From: an uncultured Clostridia bacterium
GTDB lineage: Bacteria > Bacillota > Clostridia > TANB77 > CAG-508
Direction: 5' to 3'
Assembly: GCA_947627755.1 (NCBI GenBank)
Contig: CANQXD010000014.1
Coordinates: 1 to 39,118 of the forward strand
DNA: 39,118 bases
The notes below the pieces were generated by a model. It had not been told where the DNA came from and made no database searches. It saw only the letters and a program-made list of their open reading frames with translations. A program made the position numbers and the translations under genes. This document shows, piece by piece, positions 2,598 through 39,118 of this stretch. The first letter of the stretch is position 1. The number at the start of each line of letters is the position of its first letter.

Positions 2598-2639
2598 ATT
2601 TTATGATATAGTTTGAATAGAAAAAATGAAGGAGAAGCT

Positions 2640-4695
2640 ATGCAAGGTTTAGAAAAAGAAATACAATTTATAAAAGGAGTTGGCCCACAAAGAGCAGCAC
2701 TTATGCACAAACTTGGTATTGATACATTAGAAGATTTAATCACCTACTATCCAAGAGACTATGAAGATAGAAGTAAGCCAAAGAAAATTGCTTATTTAGA
2801 GCATGGAGAAGAAGCTTTAATTGAAGCAATGGTCGTATCACGTATGAGTGAGCAAAGAATAAGAAAAAATATGACAATTTACAAACTAATTGTGCGAGAT
2901 GAAACAGGAACTTGTATGCTTACTTGGTTCAACCAAAGTTATTTAAAAAATAAATTTGTATTAGGACAAAAATATAAATTCTATGGAAAAGTATCTATGC
3001 AATATGGAAAAATAGAAATGAATTCGCCTGTATATGATAGCGAGCAAACCAGCAAAAATACAGGAAAAATCATTCCTATTTATCCTGCAACTTTTGGACT
3101 TACACAAACAACAATTAGACAAGTAATTGAAAATGGACTAAATGTAGCAAAAGAAGAAAATTTATTAGAAGAGACCTTGCCAGACTATATATTAAAAGAA
3201 TATCATTTAGAAAATAGAGAAGAAGCAAATATGCAAATTCATTTTCCAAAAGACTTTCAAAGCTTTGAAATAGCAAGAAAAAGGCTAGTATTTGAAGAAT
3301 TACTTGCAATGCAATTAGCTCTAATCAGTCTAAAAAATCAATATACCAAAGAAGAAAAAGGAATTGCTTTTTCAAAAGACGTCAAAATGTCAGATGTTAT
3401 AAATGAACTTCCTTTCAAGCTAACGAAAGCCCAATTAAAAGTATTAGAAGAAATAGATAACAACATGGAAGGCGAAAAGCCAATGAATAGGTTGCTTCAA
3501 GGAGATGTAGGATCACGGAAAAACAGTTGTGGCTATGATAGCAGCATACAAAGCAGTAAAATGTGGCTATCAAGTAGCAGTAATGGCACCAACAGCCATT
3601 CTTGCTACACAACATTTATCTTCCTTTGAAGAAATTTTAGGAAAGTATGGTATTAGAACAGAACTTTTAATAGGAAGTGTTAGCAAAAAGAAAAAAGAAG
3701 AATTATTAGAACGACTAAAAAATGGGCAAATCGATATTTTAATTGGAACTCATGCTTTACTAGAAGAAAATGTGGTATTTCAAAAATTAGGACTAGTCGT
3801 TACAGATGAGCAACATCGTTTTGGCGTAAGACAAAGAAGCATAATTGCTAATAAAGGAGAAAATCCAGATGTTTTAGTTATGAGTGCAACACCAATTCCA
3901 AGAACTTTGGCTCTAATTTTATATGGTGACCTAGACATTTCCATTATTGATGAATTGCCACCAAATAGAAAGAAAATTGATACATTTGCAGTAACCAAAG
4001 CAATGGAGCAAAGGGTAAATAACTTCATCAAAAAACAAATAGGAGAAGGCAGACAAGCATATATTGTTTGCCCATTAGTAGAAGAAAACGAAGAAATTGA
4101 TGCAAAAGCAGTTTTAGAACTTGCAGAAAGATATAAAACAGAAGTATTTCCAGAATTAAGAGTAGAATATTTACACGGCAAAATGAAACCAAAAGAAAAA
4201 GATGCCATTATGCAAGAATTTAAAGAAGGAAACATTGATATTTTAATTTCAACTACAGTAATTGAAGTAGGCGTAAATGTTCCAAATGCTAGTATTATGG
4301 TAGTAGAAAATGCTGAACGCTTTGGACTTGCCCAGCTTCACCAATTAAGAGGAAGAGTAGGAAGAGGAGAATATCAATCATATTGTATTTTAAAATACCA
4401 AGGAAATTCAGATGTCATTAGGCAAAGAATGAAAACTATGCAAGAAACAAACGATGGATTTGTTATTGCAGAAAAAGACTTAGAATTAAGAGGAAGCGGA
4501 GAATTTTTTGGAACCAAACAACATGGTATTCCAGAATTTAAAATTGCTAATTTATTTCAAGATATGCCAATTCTAAAAGTGGTGCAAGGACTAGCTATAA
4601 AAATAGAACAAGAAGATCCAAAATTGGAATTAGAGAAAAATGAATTATTAAATAAATTGGTAGAGAAAAAATTTAGCAATCGAATTGAAATTTAA
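2640..4695 (+). CDS. recG: ATP-dependent DNA helicase RecG, interrupted by a one-base frameshift
   Basis: RecG remodels stalled replication forks and Holliday junctions. The N-terminal part (to about residue 290) has the helix-hairpin-helix-like GVGPQRA segment and the OB-fold wedge domain. The helicase part carries DEQHRFG (about residue 389), SATPIPRT, ISTTVIEVGVNVPNA and QLRGRVGR. The reading frame breaks inside the Walker A motif. The codons run GGA GAT GTA GGA TCA, then an extra C at 3516, then GGA AAA ACA. Removing that base restores GDVGSGKT and a continuous protein of about 685 residues, the usual RecG length. I chose ATG 2640 because AAGGAG at 2629-2634 sits five bases upstream; an in-frame ATG at 2613 lacks such a site. 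The gene is otherwise intact, so either the mutation is very recent or the base is a sequence error. Confidence 0.93.
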
Positions 4696-11128: not shown

Positions 11129-11617
11129 ATGAAAAGTATATACGAAAATGAAATGAATTTAGAATTCATTAGTAAATCTAGCAATGAAGCCTTTGCTAGA
11201 ATTAGTGTAGCAGCTTTTGCTGCTCAATTAGACCCAACAATAGAAGAAATTGCAGATATTAAAACAGCAGTTTCTGAGGCGGTAACTAACAGCATTGTTC
11301 ATGGGTACGAAGATACAGAAGGCATTGTAAAAGTGCATTGTAAAATCATTGGAAATTCCATCATTGTTGAAGTTTCTGACACTGGAAAAGGAATTGAAAA
11401 TGTAGAAGAGGCAAGAAAGCCACTTTATACTTCTAAACCAAATTTAGAACGCTCTGGAATGGGATTTACTATTATGGAAAGCTTTATGGATGAAGTGAAA
11501 ATTGAATCTATTGTAGGCTTGGGAACGAAAGTAACTATGAAAAAACTCATTAAAAAAGAAGAAGTAACCCAAGAGGAAATTGAAGAAGTTTTAAGCCAAA
11601 TAGGAAAAGAACAATAA
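11129..11617 (+). CDS. spoIIAB: anti-sigma-F factor / serine kinase SpoIIAB
   Basis: SpoIIAB binds and inhibits sigma-F and phosphorylates SpoIIAA. The 162-residue GHKL-type kinase has the N box [12 protein letters not shown]1 box DTGKGI, and G2 box RSGMGFTIM. It has about 16 residues more than the B. subtilis protein, as a Glu-rich C-terminal tail ([18 protein letters not shown]). ATG 11129 follows AAAAGGAG. It lies in the spoIIAA-spoIIAB-sigF order of all sporulating Firmicutes. Confidence 0.96.
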
Positions 11618-11636
11618 CAAAAGAGGAGTGTCATCA

Positions 11637-12362
11637 ATGGTATATGAAAATAATGTGAAAGATATTATAGATGCTCAAAACGGAAACCAAGAAATGATGA
11701 CAAAATTAATCGAAGAAAATAATGGACTTATTTGGAGCATAGTAAAAAGATTTAAAGATAGAGGATATGAGTTAGAAGATTTGTATCAAATTGGAACTAT
11801 TGGATTTGTGAAATCTATCAAACGATTTGACAGTTCTTTTGATGTGAGATTATCTACGTATGCAGTTCCTTATATTTTAGGTGAAATTAAACGCTTTATT
11901 CGTGATGACGGCAGCATAAAGGTAAGCCGCAGCACAAAAGAATTAGCAATGAAAATTAGAGATTTACAAAATAAGCATTTAGCTAAAACAGGTGAAGAAA
12001 TAAGCATTACAGAAATTGCAAAAGAACTTAAATTACCAAAAGAAGAAATTGCGCTTGCTTTAGATTCTTTAAAACCAACAGTTTCTATTTATGAAGATAG
12101 CTATAGTGATGAAGAAGGAGGTATTTCTTTTATTGATTCTTTAAGTACTGGGGTAGATGAAGCAGAGCAAGTAGTTAGCAAAATTGCAATTAAAGAAATG
12201 ATTAATAATTTACAAGATAGAGAAAAAGAACTAATTTTACTTCGTTATTATAAAAATAAAACACAAATGGAAGTAGCAAAAATTTTAGGTGTCAGTCAAG
12301 TACAAGTTTCAAGAATTGAAAAAAAGATATTAAATTCAATGAAATTAAAATTGGCACAATAA
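11637..12362 (+). CDS. sigF: RNA polymerase sigma-F factor (early forespore)
   Basis: Sigma-F is the first forespore-specific sigma factor. The protein carries region 2 (DLYQIGTIGFVKSIKRFD, STYAVPYILGEIKRFIRDDG), region 3 (SRSTKELAMKIR) and the region 4 helix-turn-helix (TQMEVAKILGVSQVQVSRIEKK). ATG 11637 lies nine bases after GAGGAG at 11622-11627. An in-frame GTG at 11628 overlaps that ribosome binding site, so I reject it. Length is 241 residues, close to the 255 of B. subtilis. spoIID follows 19 bases downstream. Confidence 0.96.
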   Translation: MVYENNVKDIIDAQNGNQEMMTKLIEENNGLIWSIVKRFKDRGYELEDLYQIGTIGFVKSIKRFDSSFDVRLSTYAVPYILGEIKRFIRDDGSIKVSRSTKELAMKIRDLQNKHLAKTGEEISITEIAKELKLPKEEIALALDSLKPTVSIYEDSYSDEEGGISFIDSLSTGVDEAEQVVSKIAIKEMINNLQDREKELILLRYYKNKTQMEVAKILGVSQVQVSRIEKKILNSMKLKLAQ

Positions 12363-12381
12363 TCTCAAGGAGGATAAAACT

Positions 12382-13371
12382 ATGAAAAAAATTTTAGGCT
12401 ATATTTTGCTATTTATATTGTTGTGTTTTGCTATACCAATTCTCTTTACACAAAAAAAAGAGAAACCAGTAGCTGCAATTGTAAATGAAGAACCACCAAC
12501 CGATATAGCTTATGATTATAAACAATATAATGTAGTAAAGTTATGGCATACAAAAACAAGTACAGTAGAAGAAATTGCTTTAGACGAATACCTATATGGT
12601 GTGGTATCTGCAGAAATGCCAGCAAGTTTTGAAGAAGAAGCATTAAAAGCACAAGCAGTAGTAGCAAGAACATATACTATTTATAAAATTGTGAATAATG
12701 CAAATAAGCATGAAGGAGCAGATATTTGTGACGATTCTGCTTGTTGTCAAGCATGGATTTCAAAAGAAGATAGATTTGCAAAATGGAATGAGCAAGACAG
12801 AGAAAACAATTGGAATAAAATAGTAGCTAGTGTGAATGCTACAAAAGGAAAGATAATCACTTATGAAGGAAAGCCAATCAATGCCTTTTTCCATTCTAAT
12901 AGTGGAGGAAAAACAGAAACCACCCTAAATGTATGGGGAGGGGATGGATATCCTTATTTGCAATCTGTTGCCACTGCTGGGGAAGAAGCTTATAGTCAGT
13001 ATCAATCCGAAGTTACATTAACCAAGCAAACCTTCATTGATAAAATAAAAGAAAAATATGCAGACTTTGAAATTGATTTTACACAAGAAAATGCAATTCA
13101 AGTATTAGAATACACAGAATCAGGCAGAGTAAAAACAATTAGAATGGGAAATAAAGAATTTTCTGGAGTAGAAGTACGAACACTTTTAGGCTTAAAATCT
13201 GCTAATTTTACAATAACCATAGAAGGAGATAACTTAAAATTTTCTGTAATAGGCTACGGACATGGCGTAGGTATGAGTCAAACTGGTGCAGATAGTATGG
13301 CAAAACAAGGAAGTAATTATGAAGAAATTATAAAACATTTTTATACAGGAGTAGAAATAGTAGATTTATAA
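12382..13371 (+). CDS. spoIID: stage II sporulation protein D (peptidoglycan lytic transglycosylase)
   Basis: SpoIID cleaves septal glycan strands during engulfment, acting from the mother cell with SpoIIM and SpoIIP. One N-terminal membrane segment (about 5-22) precedes the SpoIID domain: YLYGVVSAEMP with the expected catalytic Glu78, AFFHSNSGGKTE, and C-terminal GHGVGMSQTGA. The 329 residues are near the family length. ATG follows CAAGGAGG. In B. subtilis spoIID is expressed under sigma-E; here the gene sits directly behind sigF, so read-through from spoIIA is possible. I found no clear sigma-E promoter in the 19-base gap or at the end of sigF. Confidence 0.95.
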   Translation: MKKILGYILLFILLCFAIPILFTQKKEKPVAAIVNEEPPTDIAYDYKQYNVVKLWHTKTSTVEEIALDEYLYGVVSAEMPASFEEEALKAQAVVARTYTIYKIVNNANKHEGADICDDSACCQAWISKEDRFAKWNEQDRENNWNKIVASVNATKGKIITYEGKPINAFFHSNSGGKTETTLNVWGGDGYPYLQSVATAGEEAYSQYQSEVTLTKQTFIDKIKEKYADFEIDFTQENAIQVLEYTESGRVKTIRMGNKEFSGVEVRTLLGLKSANFTITIEGDNLKFSVIGYGHGVGMSQTGADSMAKQGSNYEEIIKHFYTGVEIVDL

Positions 13372-13418
13372 TTATCAAACCTTATTAGAACAGATTTTAA
13401 ATAAAATAAAAACAAATG

Positions 13419-13446
13419 GTATAAAACTACAAAAAGCGGAAACAAT
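13419..13446 (+). promoter_or_regulatory. candidate sigma-F promoter of spoIIQ
   Basis: GTATA at 13419-13423 and GGAAACAAT at 13438-13446 resemble the sigma-F consensus of Bacillus (GYATA and GGnnAnAnT), with 14 bases between. The promoter precedes a gene that is sigma-F dependent in Bacillus. Confidence 0.55.
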
Positions 13447-13479
13447 CTAACTAAAGAAAAAAATGAAGGAGGAAAATAC

Positions 13480-14292
13480 ATGAGAAGAAATAACAGAAGA
13501 CCATTTGATGAGGAGAAGGAAACCAATAAAATAGTAATTATTTCTTTTGCTGTTTTAATAATGGCAGTCCTTGCATTTATTATTACTTTTGTAGTATATC
13601 GTAATTATTTAAATAAGCAAACGGATATAGCAAAATACAATACTTCTATTACAGATTTAGGAAAAACAAATCAAGAAGCAACTTCTAGTGCAAGTTCTAG
13701 TATAGGAAAAAGTGTAAATGAAATGCAAGAAGAAAATATAATATCAAATGAAATAACTAATGAAACTAGCACAGATAAAATAGCTATTAATACTTCTACA
13801 ATGGAAAAAGAAAATGTAAATGAGCAATCAACACAAACAACTACTACACCTCAAACAGAAGAAAAACAAGAAGAAAAGAAGCCAGATCCAACATTTGTAA
13901 AACCAGTAGAAGGACAAGTATCTACTGAATTTGCAAAGGATACCTTAATATATTCTAATACTTTGCAAGAATGGGTAACTCATAATGGAATTGACATTAA
14001 AGCAGACAAAACTACAGTTGTAAAAGCATCTGCAGAAGGAACTATAAAATCTATAAAAAATGATCCACGCTATGGAATTACAGTAGTAATAGAACATGTA
14101 AATGGCTATCAAACAGTTTATGCTAATTTACTAACAGCAGAATTTGTAAAAGAGGGAGAAACAGTAAAACAAGGACAAACCATAGGAACAGTAGGAAATA
14201 CAGCTACATTTGAAATTGCAGATGACTCTCATCTACATTTTGAAATGATAAAGGATGGAGAATATGTAGATCCAAACTTATATTTAAAATAG
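13480..14292 (+). CDS. spoIIQ: SpoIIQ-like M23-family protein
   Basis: SpoIIQ is the forespore membrane half of the SpoIIIAH-SpoIIQ engulfment channel. Layout: cytoplasmic arginine-rich start (MRRNNRRPFDEE), one membrane segment (about 17-40), a Ser/Thr/Glu-rich linker (45-135), and an LytM/M23 domain (140-270). The domain keeps the metal-ligand residues His168 and Asp172 (HNGID) and the HLH motif at 251-253. The usual YxHL histidine is Asn216 (YANL). B. subtilis SpoIIQ is inactive, whereas clostridial SpoIIQ proteins keep zinc ligands, so this one probably binds zinc; activity is uncertain. ATG follows GAAGGAGG. Placement directly after spoIID supports the assignment. Confidence 0.88.
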   Translation: MRRNNRRPFDEEKETNKIVIISFAVLIMAVLAFIITFVVYRNYLNKQTDIAKYNTSITDLGKTNQEATSSASSSIGKSVNEMQEENIISNEITNETSTDKIAINTSTMEKENVNEQSTQTTTTPQTEEKQEEKKPDPTFVKPVEGQVSTEFAKDTLIYSNTLQEWVTHNGIDIKADKTTVVKASAEGTIKSIKNDPRYGITVVIEHVNGYQTVYANLLTAEFVKEGETVKQGQTIGTVGNTATFEIADDSHLHFEMIKDGEYVDPNLYLK

Positions 14293-16580: not shown

Positions 16581-16632
16581 TTGCCATTTGGCTTTGTTGA
16601 ACTTATACTAAAAAAGGAGAATGATTGTTAAA

Positions 16633-17229
16633 ATGAAACAAATTGGAAAGAAAATCATAAAGAAAATAGTAGAAGGTGCACTTTTTCTTTATTGCAAAAT
16701 AGTTCATAGAGTAAAAATAGAGGGAACAGAAAATATACCAATGGAAGGAGCAGTTATCTTTTGTGGAAATCATAGAAGCTTTTTAGACCCACCTTTAATG
16801 AAGGTAACTTGCAAAAGAGAAACCCACTTTTTAGCGAAAGAAAGCTTATATAGAAATCCATTTCTTGCTTTTTTAGGATGGGTATTTGAGGTTATTCCTG
16901 TTAAAAAAGATTCAAAAGATTTAAATGCCATTAAAGCTTCTTTGAAATATTTGAAAAAAGGGGAGAGTATTTCATTATACCCAGAAGGAACTAGAAATGG
17001 ACTTGCTAAAGGTGAAAAAGTAAAAGATGGAGCAGCATTTTTTGCAATAAGAACAGGAGCAAAAGTAGTACCAGTTGGAATTTCAGGAAAAAAAGGAGCT
17101 TTTTCAAAAGTAACTATTCGCTATGGCAAACCATTAGATTATAGCAAATACAAAGATGTAGATGAAAAAGAAGCATTAGAAACAGTAACTCAAGACATTA
17201 TGGACCATATTATAGAGCTTACAAAATAA
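16633..17229 (+). CDS. plsC: 1-acyl-sn-glycerol-3-phosphate acyltransferase
   Basis: PlsC acylates lysophosphatidic acid in phospholipid synthesis at the membrane. The protein contains the acyltransferase motifs NHRSFLDP (H-x4-D) and YPEGTRN, and VPVGISG. N-terminal KKIIKKIVEGALFLYCKIV is an amphipathic/hydrophobic anchor. Two starts are possible: ATG at 16621, which overlaps AAAAAGGAG almost completely, and ATG at 16633, 13 bases beyond it. I prefer 16633, but the spacing is long, so the start is uncertain by four codons. It follows cmk as in many Firmicutes. Confidence 0.92.
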   Translation: MKQIGKKIIKKIVEGALFLYCKIVHRVKIEGTENIPMEGAVIFCGNHRSFLDPPLMKVTCKRETHFLAKESLYRNPFLAFLGWVFEVIPVKKDSKDLNAIKASLKYLKKGESISLYPEGTRNGLAKGEKVKDGAAFFAIRTGAKVVPVGISGKKGAFSKVTIRYGKPLDYSKYKDVDEKEALETVTQDIMDHIIELTK

Positions 17230-17309: not shown

Positions 17310-17338
17310 TTGACTTATGTAAATTATCATAATATACT
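17310..17338 (+). promoter_or_regulatory. sigma-A promoter of the candidate ncRNA
   Basis: TTGACT at 17310-17315 and TATACT at 17333-17338, spacing 17 bases. Confidence 0.8.
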
Positions 17339-17344
17339 AAATAC

Positions 17345-17718
17345 ATAAGTTAGCCAAGTGCTACTTATATGTAACTTCTCCTTAACACATATTCGTGTTA
17401 GGAGTACAACCACACATTCAAAATGGAGGACAAAACATGACAGCAAGAGGAAATCCCAGATCGATGAATCCTAATATTCTTAATAAGAAAAACATGTAGC
17501 GGCAGCCCCGGTAGCGGCAAAGCCAAAGGTGCGCAGTGATAGCGCGTAATGGGAGAAAAATCCTATATGAGAAAAGTCCCCGGGAAGTGGTTCTCTTAAG
17601 AATAATTAAGAGAAAAAAGATGTGAGTGAAGAGTCTAAGCATCTTCTATACCACGAAAACAGACTCAAAATAAAATTGAATAAAGAGATGGCGTTCAACT
17701 ATGTAGGACGTCATCTTT
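17345..17718 (+). ncRNA. candidate structured non-coding RNA with its own promoter and terminator
   Basis: The region between plsC and rpsA holds no long convincing gene, but it has a promoter (17310-17338), a terminator (17686-17720), and a G+C-rich core unlike the neighbouring AT-rich sequence. Foldable parts seen: a stem CTCCTTAACAC/GTGTTAGGAG (17378-17404), CCCGG 17507-17511 with CCGGG 17580-17584, GCGC/GCGC 17531-17545, GTGGT 17587-17591 with ACCAC 17650-17654, TTCTCTTAA/TTAAGAGAA 17591-17614, and AAGATG/CATCTT 17617-17645. GAGTCT in the last loop (17631-17636) is complementary to AGACTC (17661-17666), which makes a pseudoknot. I cannot match it to RNase P, SRP RNA, tmRNA or 6S RNA. It could be of the raiA-motif class, but that is a guess. 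The transcript would be about 375 nt. Confidence 0.72.
17437..17499 (+). CDS. possible 20-residue peptide inside the candidate ncRNA
   Basis: ATG at 17437 is preceded by GGAGG (17425-17429) at seven bases, and the frame runs to TAG at 17497-17499. The peptide (MTARGNPRSM, then NPNILNKKNM) is basic and has no hydrophobic part. It may be a real leader peptide, or a chance frame in a folded RNA. Evidence is only the good ribosome binding site. Confidence 0.3.
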   Translation: MTARGNPRSMNPNILNKKNM

Positions 17719-17720
17719 TG
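17686..17720 (+). terminator. terminator of the candidate ncRNA
   Basis: AGATGGCGTTC at 17686-17696 pairs with a segment ending CGTCATCT at 17716 (some G-T pairs), followed by TTTTGTTTTT. Confidence 0.82.
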
Positions 17721-17808: not shown

Positions 17809-17837
17809 TTGACAACAAAAAAAGATTGCTATATAAT
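17809..17837 (+). promoter_or_regulatory. sigma-A promoter of rpsA
   Basis: TTGACA at 17809-17814 and TATAAT at 17832-17837, spacing 17 bases; a perfect consensus pair, 73 bases before rpsA. Confidence 0.85.
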
Positions 17838-17910: not shown

Positions 17911-19068
17911 ATGGAAAACGAAAAAGAACAATCTTTTGAAGAATTATATAAAGCATCTTTAAAAGAAACAAAATTAGAAAAAATAGTAACAGGAACTATT
18001 ATTAGCATAACTTCACAAGGAGAAATCTTTGTAGATTTACACTATAAAGCAGATGGAATCATTCCTAAAAAAGAATATAGTGATGACGAAAATGCAAATC
18101 CAAAAGAAGAATTTAAAGTAGGAGATAGCATTACAGCTATTGTATTAAAACAAAATGATGGTTTAGGAAATGTGTTGTTATCTTATAAACGTTATAAGGC
18201 ACAAGAAACCAAAAAAGAATTAGAACAAAAAGTAAATAATAGTGAAATTATAGAATCCGTAGTAACACAAGTAAATGAAAAAGGTTTAGTTACAACAATA
18301 AATAATATGAGAGTATTTATTCCAATGTCTTTATCTGGTATTCCTAGAGGAGAAGATGGAAGCTCTTTAAAAGGCCAAAAAGTAAGATATCGTATCACAG
18401 AATATGATGAAAAATCAAATCGTATCATTGGTTCTATTCGTAGCGTACTAGACGAAGAAAGAAAACAAAAACAAGAGGAATTTTGGAATACTGTAGAAGT
18501 AGGAAAAGAATATGAAGGAACAGTAGCAAGCTTAAGCGCTTATGGTGCTTTTGTAGATTTAGGAGCTGTGCAAGGCTTACTTCATGTATCTGAAATATCA
18601 TGGGATAGAAATGTTAAACCAAGTGATGTATTAAAGCAAGGTCAAAATATAAAAGTAACTATACTAGAATTAGACAAAGAAAATAAACGTTTAAAACTAA
18701 GTTATGAAGGTAAAGGTCCAAATCCATGGAACACAATAGAAAATAAATATCACATTGGTGATATAGTTACAGTTAAAGTAGTAAAAATGATGCCATTTGG
18801 TGCATTTGTAGAATTAGAACAAGGAATTGAAGGGCTAGTTCATATTTCACAAATTGCAGAAAAGAAAATTACAAAACCAGAAGAAGTATTAACATTAAAT
18901 GAAAAAGTTAATGCTAAAATTATAGATATTAACCTAGAAGCAAAGAAAATAGAACTTTCTATTAAAGAACTAGAAGGAACATCAAACGAGTACAAAGAAC
19001 AAAACGAAACAGAAAACAAAATAGAAAATGAAATAAAGGAAGAAAGTAAAGAAGAAATACAAGAATAG
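17911..19068 (+). CDS. rpsA: 30S ribosomal protein S1 homologue
   Basis: The 385-residue protein contains four S1 RNA-binding domains at about 25-95, 110-180, 195-265 and 280-350. The last two are the most canonical (GAFVDLGAVQGLLHVSEISW and GAFVELEQGIEGLVHISQIA). A Glu/Lys-rich tail follows residue 355. Clostridial S1 proteins often have four domains rather than six. ATG follows ACAGGAG. It has its own strong promoter and terminator. In many clostridia rpsA is linked to cmk, plsC and ispH; here ispH is absent and the ncRNA unit lies between. Confidence 0.94.
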   Translation: MENEKEQSFEELYKASLKETKLEKIVTGTIISITSQGEIFVDLHYKADGIIPKKEYSDDENANPKEEFKVGDSITAIVLKQNDGLGNVLLSYKRYKAQETKKELEQKVNNSEIIESVVTQVNEKGLVTTINNMRVFIPMSLSGIPRGEDGSSLKGQKVRYRITEYDEKSNRIIGSIRSVLDEERKQKQEEFWNTVEVGKEYEGTVASLSAYGAFVDLGAVQGLLHVSEISWDRNVKPSDVLKQGQNIKVTILELDKENKRLKLSYEGKGPNPWNTIENKYHIGDIVTVKVVKMMPFGAFVELEQGIEGLVHISQIAEKKITKPEEVLTLNEKVNAKIIDINLEAKKIELSIKELEGTSNEYKEQNETENKIENEIKEESKEEIQE

Positions 19069-29258: not shown

Positions 29259-29413
29259 AACATAATAATAGGCTATCAACTATTGAATAACCAACAAACA
29301 ATTAAGTAAAAAATAAAAATAAATGTGAAAAAATAATAATCATAGTCAGGCACTTTTTGTTTTTTAAAACATATAATTTGGTATGTAAAAAAAGAAACGG
29401 AGGTGCCTATTAT

Positions 29414-30112
29414 TTGCTTAGCCTTAGTCTATCAGGATTTTTTGCTTTTCTTTCTTCAGCAATTTTTTTAGTAGGTTATATTTCTAATAATCAATTATTC
29501 CCAGAACCACTATCAGCAGAAGAAGAGAAGATGTATTTACAAAGGTTAAAAGAAAAAGATGAGGAAGCAAGGAATATTTTAATTGAAAGAAATTTAAGAT
29601 TAGTGGCACACGTATGTAAAAAATATGCTTCTTGTAAGGTGGAACAAGATGACTTAATTTCTATTGGAACTATTGGCTTAATAAAAGGAATCAATAGTTT
29701 TGAACCAACAAAAAATGTAAAACTTTCTACGTATGTGTCAAGATGTATTGATAATGAAATATTGATGCACTTAAGAGCAACGAAAAAAATTAGTGCAGAA
29801 GTTTCTTTAGAAGACCCAATAGGAAAAGATAAAGACGACAATACTGTAACTTTGCAAGATGTATTAGAAAACAATGAAAAGAATATCGAAGATGAAGTAG
29901 ACTTAAAAATGAAAATGAAAAAACTATATGAAAAAATGAAATGCGTATTAAAAGATAGAGAAAAACTTATATTAGAATTACGCTTTGGTTTAGATGGAAA
30001 AAAGCCAAAAACACAAAATCAAATAGCAGAAATGATGGGAATTTCGCGCTCTTATGTGTCAAGAATTGAGACTAAAGCCATTGGAAAATTAGCAAAAGAA
30101 ATGAGAGAATAA
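29414..30112 (+). CDS. sigK: RNA polymerase sigma-K factor precursor (late mother cell), uninterrupted
   Basis: Sigma-K directs late mother-cell transcription. The protein has a hydrophobic pro-sequence (LSLSLSGFFAFLSSAIFLVGYI) cleaved in Bacillus by SpoIVFB, followed by NQLFPEPLSAEEE as in sigma-K, region 2 (ARNILIERNLRLVAHVCKKYA, DLISIGTIGLIKGINSFEP, LSTYVSRCIDNEILMHLRA) and region 4 (KTQNQIAEMMGISRSYVSRIETKAIGKL). I chose TTG 29414, eight bases after GGAGGTG (29399-29405). A frame with an upstream ATG at 29357 has no such site. Length is 233 residues. The gene is continuous, so no skin element splits it. Confidence 0.93.
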   Translation: MLSLSLSGFFAFLSSAIFLVGYISNNQLFPEPLSAEEEKMYLQRLKEKDEEARNILIERNLRLVAHVCKKYASCKVEQDDLISIGTIGLIKGINSFEPTKNVKLSTYVSRCIDNEILMHLRATKKISAEVSLEDPIGKDKDDNTVTLQDVLENNEKNIEDEVDLKMKMKKLYEKMKCVLKDREKLILELRFGLDGKKPKTQNQIAEMMGISRSYVSRIETKAIGKLAKEMRE

Positions 30113-39063: not shown

Positions 39064-39118
39064 GGCCCCTTGGTCAAGCGGTTAAGACGCAGCCCTCTCA
39101 AGGCTGAATCATGGGTTC
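39064..39118 (+). tRNA. tRNA-Glu (anticodon CTC), cut off by the window end
   Basis: The acceptor 5' strand GGCCCCT begins at 39064. The anticodon stem CAGCC/GGCTG (39090-39094, 39102-39106) closes a seven-base loop with CTC at 39097-39099, which reads GAG (glutamate). GGTTC at the end of the window is the start of the T-arm; the 3' part lies outside. Confidence 0.92.

Follow-up and report, generated by a model that had tools for sequence, protein, structure and literature searches.

A Predicted RNA Gene Family of Clostridia with a Covarying Pseudoknot and Two Conserved Micro-ORFs

The window examined in this study (the whole 39,118-nucleotide stretch of DNA from an uncultured gut Clostridia bacterium) contains a promoter-to-terminator unit at 17310-17720, between plsC and rpsA, and this locus raises the question of whether the unit is a non-coding RNA of a known class, a leader of the gene that follows, or a gene that acts both as RNA and through encoded peptides. 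Table 1 lists the features on which the answer depends.

A structured RNA gene searched against known families

The initial annotation described an independent gene with its own promoter, and this description is supported by the promoter box together with the 13-mer TTGACTTATGTAA, of which the 1.64 Mb genome has only two occurrences, each at a copy of the RNA family; taken alone, the TTGACT-17-TATACT pattern is no rarer than in shuffled sequences. Folding recovered the annotated terminator, a stem of approximately 14 bp spanning about 17685-17717 with TTTTGTTTTT after it, though the terminator pattern scanner listed none for the RNA gene. The predicted transcript would begin near 17345, extend for approximately 375 nt, and comprise two 5' hairpins, micro-ORF1, a variable GC-rich middle, micro-ORF2, a 3' pseudoknot domain formed by stems P1, P2, and P3, and the terminator. 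The claim of a foldable structured RNA is borne out by the fold energy of the region (z = -3.7, with 0 of 100 shuffles equally good) and by helices that covary in homologues. Promoter positions 17313-17321 (ACTTATGTA) and positions 17342-17350 at the start of hairpin 1 (TACATAAGT) form inverted repeats, clearest in type A copies (see below), which represent a possible operator.

Searching the whole window against Rfam 15 at the gathering cut-off identified a tRNA at 39064 as the sole match. When the threshold was relaxed to E<=10, the RNA region gave chance-level matches only, none of them near its cut-off (the best match near the RNA gene, a minus-strand Qrr, scored 23.5 bits against a cut-off of 50), and 10 relative loci searched at E<=1 yielded only a neighbouring tRNA. 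The placement of the gene outside known RNA classes is consistent with these searches, while the suggested identity as raiA (or OLE or ROOL) was not supported at either threshold; GOLLD was rejected on the same grounds. Comparison with plasmids and phages by BLAST matched nothing.

Table 1. Coordinates of the gene, its neighbours, and its predicted elements in the window.
Feature	Position	Strand	Remarks
plsC	16621-17229		
Promoter TTGACT-17-TATACT with family-specific TTGACTTATGTAAA	17310-17338	+	Kept in g1 and g9 members
Hairpin 1, at predicted transcript start	17345-17368	+	86% of cells paired in alignment A5
Hairpin 2	17378-17404	+	7/8 pairs covary, changed on both sides
Shine-Dalgarno GGAGG of micro-ORF1	17425-17429	+	Retained in relatives
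Micro-ORF1, MTARGNPRSMNPNILNKKNM and stop	17437-17499	+	Start, Shine-Dalgarno site, and R[AG](G/N)P motif kept
Hairpin GTGCGC/GCGCGT, GC-rich middle	17529-17547	+	U-A, U-G, and C-G versions in type A
Micro-ORF2, MRKVPGKWFS and stop, reduced form	17567-17599	+	Relatives carry [FY]P[VS]GF[VA]
V codon of ORF2	17576-17578	+	11 nt before P1; P1 starts at +12
Stem P1, 5' strand GTGG	17587-17590	+	Paired in all members
Hairpin P2	17591-17614	+	5/8 pairs covary
Stem P3, 5' strand AAGATG	17617-17622	+	Comparative pairing
Pseudoknot strand GAGTCT	17631-17636	+	4/6 pairs covary, changed on both sides
Stem P3, 3' strand CATCTT	17640-17645	+	Comparative pairing
Stem P1, 3' strand CCAC	17651-17654	+	Comparative pairing
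Pseudoknot strand AGACTC	17661-17666	+	Comparative pairing
Terminator-like stem and T-run	17685-17719	+	By folding; G010 has the same terminator without the RNA
rpsA promoter, perfect consensus	17809-17837		Pattern scan
rpsA	17911-19068		Directly downstream of the RNA gene, same strand

Family members and locus types

The gene had been regarded as an orphan, but its own genome holds a paralogue on contig C35 (G000:C35, from 6515). Approximately 21 copies are known from 16 genomes, all within a single bacterial family (genera g1, g9, and g39), and they occupy several unrelated loci; this count excludes a truncated copy in G002. BLAST located the RNA gene between plsC and rpsA in three congeners as well (approximately 80% identical), while model R1, built on the 3' half, led to longer relatives within the genus, one of which, used as a BLAST query, identified a third locus type that includes the second copy in the window's own genome. 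With model R2 (5' domain), members were detected in 11 of 27 genomes from this genus and in a single g39 genome, and model R3 (3' core) contributed a further four genomes from genus g9, of which one has the gene twice in tandem. A core-pattern scan across approximately 85,000 species returned gut-type Clostridia records and one chance match; among the 291 genomes of a class-wide sample, the window's own genome alone matched. Judged from these sequence searches, this RNA family has no name in Rfam and, within the genomes searched, does not extend beyond one bacterial family, although its absence elsewhere is unproven because model R2 misses known g9 members. Viral matches (L009, L103) and a Flavobacteriales match (L097) from pattern scans were attributed to chance, as were weak model matches with E above about 0.004 (e.g., L082-L084) on inspection, and where other genera matched the AT-rich promoter by BLAST (L028, L030-L038, L040), no such RNA accompanied it.

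Copies of type A occupy the plsC/rpsA site (window, G022, G002, and G003), those of type B lie behind an rRNA-methyltransferase-like gene (G017, G006, G025, G024, G026, and G001), and those of type C lie beside a GAPDH-like gene (G000, G003, G022, G010, and G002), with further members in G348 (g39) and in G368, G477 (two copies), G509, and G572 (g9). Each type keeps its locus across species; neighbouring genes and their orientation vary between loci, which indicates that the RNA gene is self-contained. The plsC site of G010 (L005) is empty, with plsC leading directly into the same terminator without the RNA, and since CAAAATAAA flanks the insert on both sides, a clean loss or gain is possible. 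Length varies from approximately 270-300 nt in the compact g9 forms to as much as about 750 nt in type B, through extra GC-rich hairpins.

Several additional features were observed among these copies. The middle of the RNA in the type C copies of G003 (L026) and G010 (L056) contains nearly identical hairpin repeats of the GCGCAGATGGCGCGGAAATGTGAATC kind, which vary in number. In G022 and G002, the -10 region and hairpin 1 of the type C copies (L029 and L065) resemble those of type A when set against L002 and L003, a pattern suggestive of gene conversion between paralogues. The truncated second copy in G002 (L003 2457-2691) adjoins a repeated piece of plsC and contains the promoter and both hairpins followed by a terminator-like stem, without ORFs or core; it may reflect an assembly artefact. 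In several congeners, but not in G024, a conserved gene for a small membrane protein (MENRKLIF.., MERNRKLVF..; L013 2208-2777, L014 1991-2587) lies 3' of the type B RNA.

Covarying helices and micro-ORFs

Covariation among homologues is clear in hairpin 2, in P2/P3, and in the pseudoknot. In hairpin 2, 96.7% of the cells are paired across 15 distinct rows, while the 3' core, which is the best conserved part of the gene across genera, has 100% of its 191 cells paired and double-sided changes in six pairs; because alignments A8 and A9 were hand-joined around the helices and the sequences are related, shuffle counts for them are not probabilities. The pseudoknot proposed in the initial annotation is retained in every core-bearing relative with compensatory changes: type A, g9, G024, and G001 have GAGTCT/AGACTC, most type B copies have GAGCCT/AGGCTC, G026 has GAGCCT/AGGTTC, and G348 has AATTCTCT/AGAGAATT. 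On this comparative evidence, we regard the RNA gene as real, along with its helices and pseudoknot.

The gene indeed has no long coding frame, as annotated, but two conserved micro-ORFs had been overlooked, each with its own Shine-Dalgarno site that is kept throughout. ORF1 opens with M..R[AG](G/N)P after a GGAGG-type site and has a variable tail; it begins MTRGPT, MIRGPT, or MIRAPT within the genus and MKRAGP, MHKRAGP, MRAGPT, or MMKRAGPS in g9 and g39, and G572 lacks it. Length differences inside the ORF1 motif are whole codons, and a third-position test on its three motif codons alone was not significant (p=0.15). ORF2 of the relatives has a variable, mostly basic N-terminus followed by [FY]P[VS]GF[VA], and 11 of the 16 extra states in its variation fall at third codon positions (p=0.00135), which points to selection on ORF2. 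The motif is followed by PLEWFH, PLEWSH, PGKWFT, or LQMWCT and a stop in g9, and directly by a stop (after FPSGF[VA]) in types B and C. The ORF2 of the window is a reduced form, since type A retains only VPGKWFS before the stop and has lost FPVGF. Four of the micropeptides had no match in Pfam, as expected at 20-24 aa, and an extended frame arising from ORF2 by read-through or frameshifting is not conserved, with the frames of relatives, compared by eye, breaking at differing points beyond the stop. In the 3' part of the type C copies other than that of G000 (L029, L026, L056, and L065), the Shine-Dalgarno sequence AAGGAG precedes MKK(N/Y)(N/Y)TS... upstream of the terminator, a possible third micro-ORF.

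Because type C copies contain both ORFs without a clear pseudoknot core, the two halves of the gene are separable. The window's own genome offers a natural dissection, in that its type A and type C copies have lost complementary halves, the former keeping the knot and the latter FPSGFV. Since both micro-ORFs look selected, the RNA is probably not simply non-coding. The initial interpretation stands for a structured, independent RNA with a pseudoknot and no Rfam family, but not for raiA-type identity or a simply non-coding RNA. Intergenic RNAs of gut Clostridia that are assumed to be non-coding can hide conserved frames of 10-20 codons.

Proposed ribosome gating and alternative explanations

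In each of the 15 cores, the first base of P1 lies at +12 relative to the V/A codon of ORF2. With this codon in the P site, 5 nt would separate the A-site codon from P1, roughly the distance at which the ribosome encounters a downstream structure. Type B places this stretch behind the stop codon, and therefore the spacing is not kept for coding; however, the cores represent few independent lineages, and RNA structure alone could explain the constant distance. When a ribosome footprint at this codon was blocked in silico, at a cost of about 10-20 kcal/mol in all seven members folded, P1 was lost in six, those whose free fold contains it (the free minimum-energy fold of G017 lacks P1). As this loss follows from the imposed constraint, the simulation shows geometry rather than behaviour. 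Frameshift and read-through pseudoknots are alike in having a fixed short spacer, with structure 5 nt behind the A-site codon, but neither a slippery heptamer nor a downstream frame is conserved in the RNA described here.

We estimate at roughly 0.5 the probability that this locus is a stand-alone gene acting as both RNA and micropeptide source, with the folding of the 3' pseudoknot domain gated by a ribosome on ORF2, a role suggested by the fixed spacing combined with the footprint geometry. Ribosomes would translate ORF1 and ORF2, and at the [VA] codon of FP[VS]GF[VA] the leading edge of the ribosome would meet P1. A ribosome pausing or terminating at this codon would hold P1 open, ribosome-free RNA would fold the entire knot, and the RNA would in this way report the local translation state, acting in trans via the folded 3' domain, the micropeptides, or both. 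Cis control of a neighbour is unlikely because neighbours and orientations differ and rpsA has its own consensus promoter, which leaves putative action in trans, through the RNA, the peptide, or both. A more elaborate version, in which a trans-acting riboregulator senses translation through a pseudoknot fold switched by ribosomes on two built-in arrest-type micropeptides, with no downstream gene controlled, is offered tentatively. If the ribosome does gate the knot, one small gene would join nascent-peptide control with a trans-acting structured RNA. The covariation, coding signal, and ribosome spacing of this Rfam-absent family are all testable with one short construct.

The raiA motif RNA, or ModT, of Clostridia and other groups is likewise a stand-alone, structured RNA of similar size with pseudoknots, but it occurs in more than 2,500 species (PMC11706538) compared to the one bacterial family found here, and the present RNA contains micro-ORFs and does not match the raiA Rfam model. 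Dual-function small RNAs such as VcdRP (PMC8672173) likewise carry small ORFs; the RNA examined here differs in having two micro-ORFs together with a covarying pseudoknot domain and a fixed ribosome-to-knot spacing. As for RAPP-type and SecM arrest peptides (ApcA, ApdA, ApdP, and SecM; PMC10987492, PMC12992588), the RAGP, RGPT, and RAPT of ORF1 are all among RAPP-like arrest query motifs (PMC10987492), and RAGP is absent from more than 70% of Bacillota proteomes (PMC12992588). The RAPP-like pattern R-[AG]-(G/P)-P/T appears in ORF1 as RAGP in g9 and g39 and as RGPT or RAPT in types B and C, but the window's copy has RGNP. However, known arrests require a preceding N-terminal region (PMC12992588), and such a region contacting the exit tunnel is missing in ORF1, which has only 1-4 residues ahead of the motif; in addition, no regulated gene lies downstream. 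We hypothesize that ORF1 may cause arrest.

The sequence features can also be read without ribosome gating. Selection on ORF2, the separate Shine-Dalgarno sites, and the stop just after FPSGF[VA] in types B and C would all be expected of an ordinary bicistronic mRNA encoding two functional micropeptides (signals or regulators), with a 3' pseudoknot that merely protects it from decay. This is somewhat unlikely given that the peptide tails vary freely, the RNA core persists in a member without ORF1 and in type A, where FPVGF is missing, helix covariation far exceeds that of a simple stem, and the ORF2-P1 distance is constant even past the stop codon. Conversely, the preservation of the core across genera and the degradation of ORF2 in type A and of ORF1 in G572 would suit a trans-acting structured RNA whose micro-ORFs are of little importance, serving just to load ribosomes or persisting as relics; the third-position bias of ORF2, the whole-codon indels in ORF1, and the Shine-Dalgarno sites retained throughout make this unlikely.

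A divergent known large RNA class or mobile-element RNA (raiA, OLE, ROOL, GOLLD, group I/II intron, or omega RNA) might explain the patchy distribution, the several loci, and the tandem copies in G477, and raiA RNA has pseudoknots too (PMC11706538). It is nevertheless very improbable, as no such Rfam match was obtained for the window at E<=10 or the 10 relative loci at E<=1, no transposase or reverse transcriptase was noted in the flanks listed, and the locus is constant per type across species. Least probable of all is action in cis, as a leader or riboswitch, on the gene that follows, which in the window would be rpsA, directly downstream on the same strand; a terminator separates the two, rpsA has its own perfect promoter, and relatives adjoin unrelated genes, often in the opposite orientation.

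Elsewhere in the window, a recG-like gene (2613-4695) is broken into frames 2613-3629 and 3529-4695, which overlap, reflecting either a frameshift or an assembly error. Frames resembling SpoIIAB, SigF, SpoIID, SpoIIQ, and SigK were recognized by eye at 11129-14292 and 29357-30112, and the host is therefore probably a spore former.
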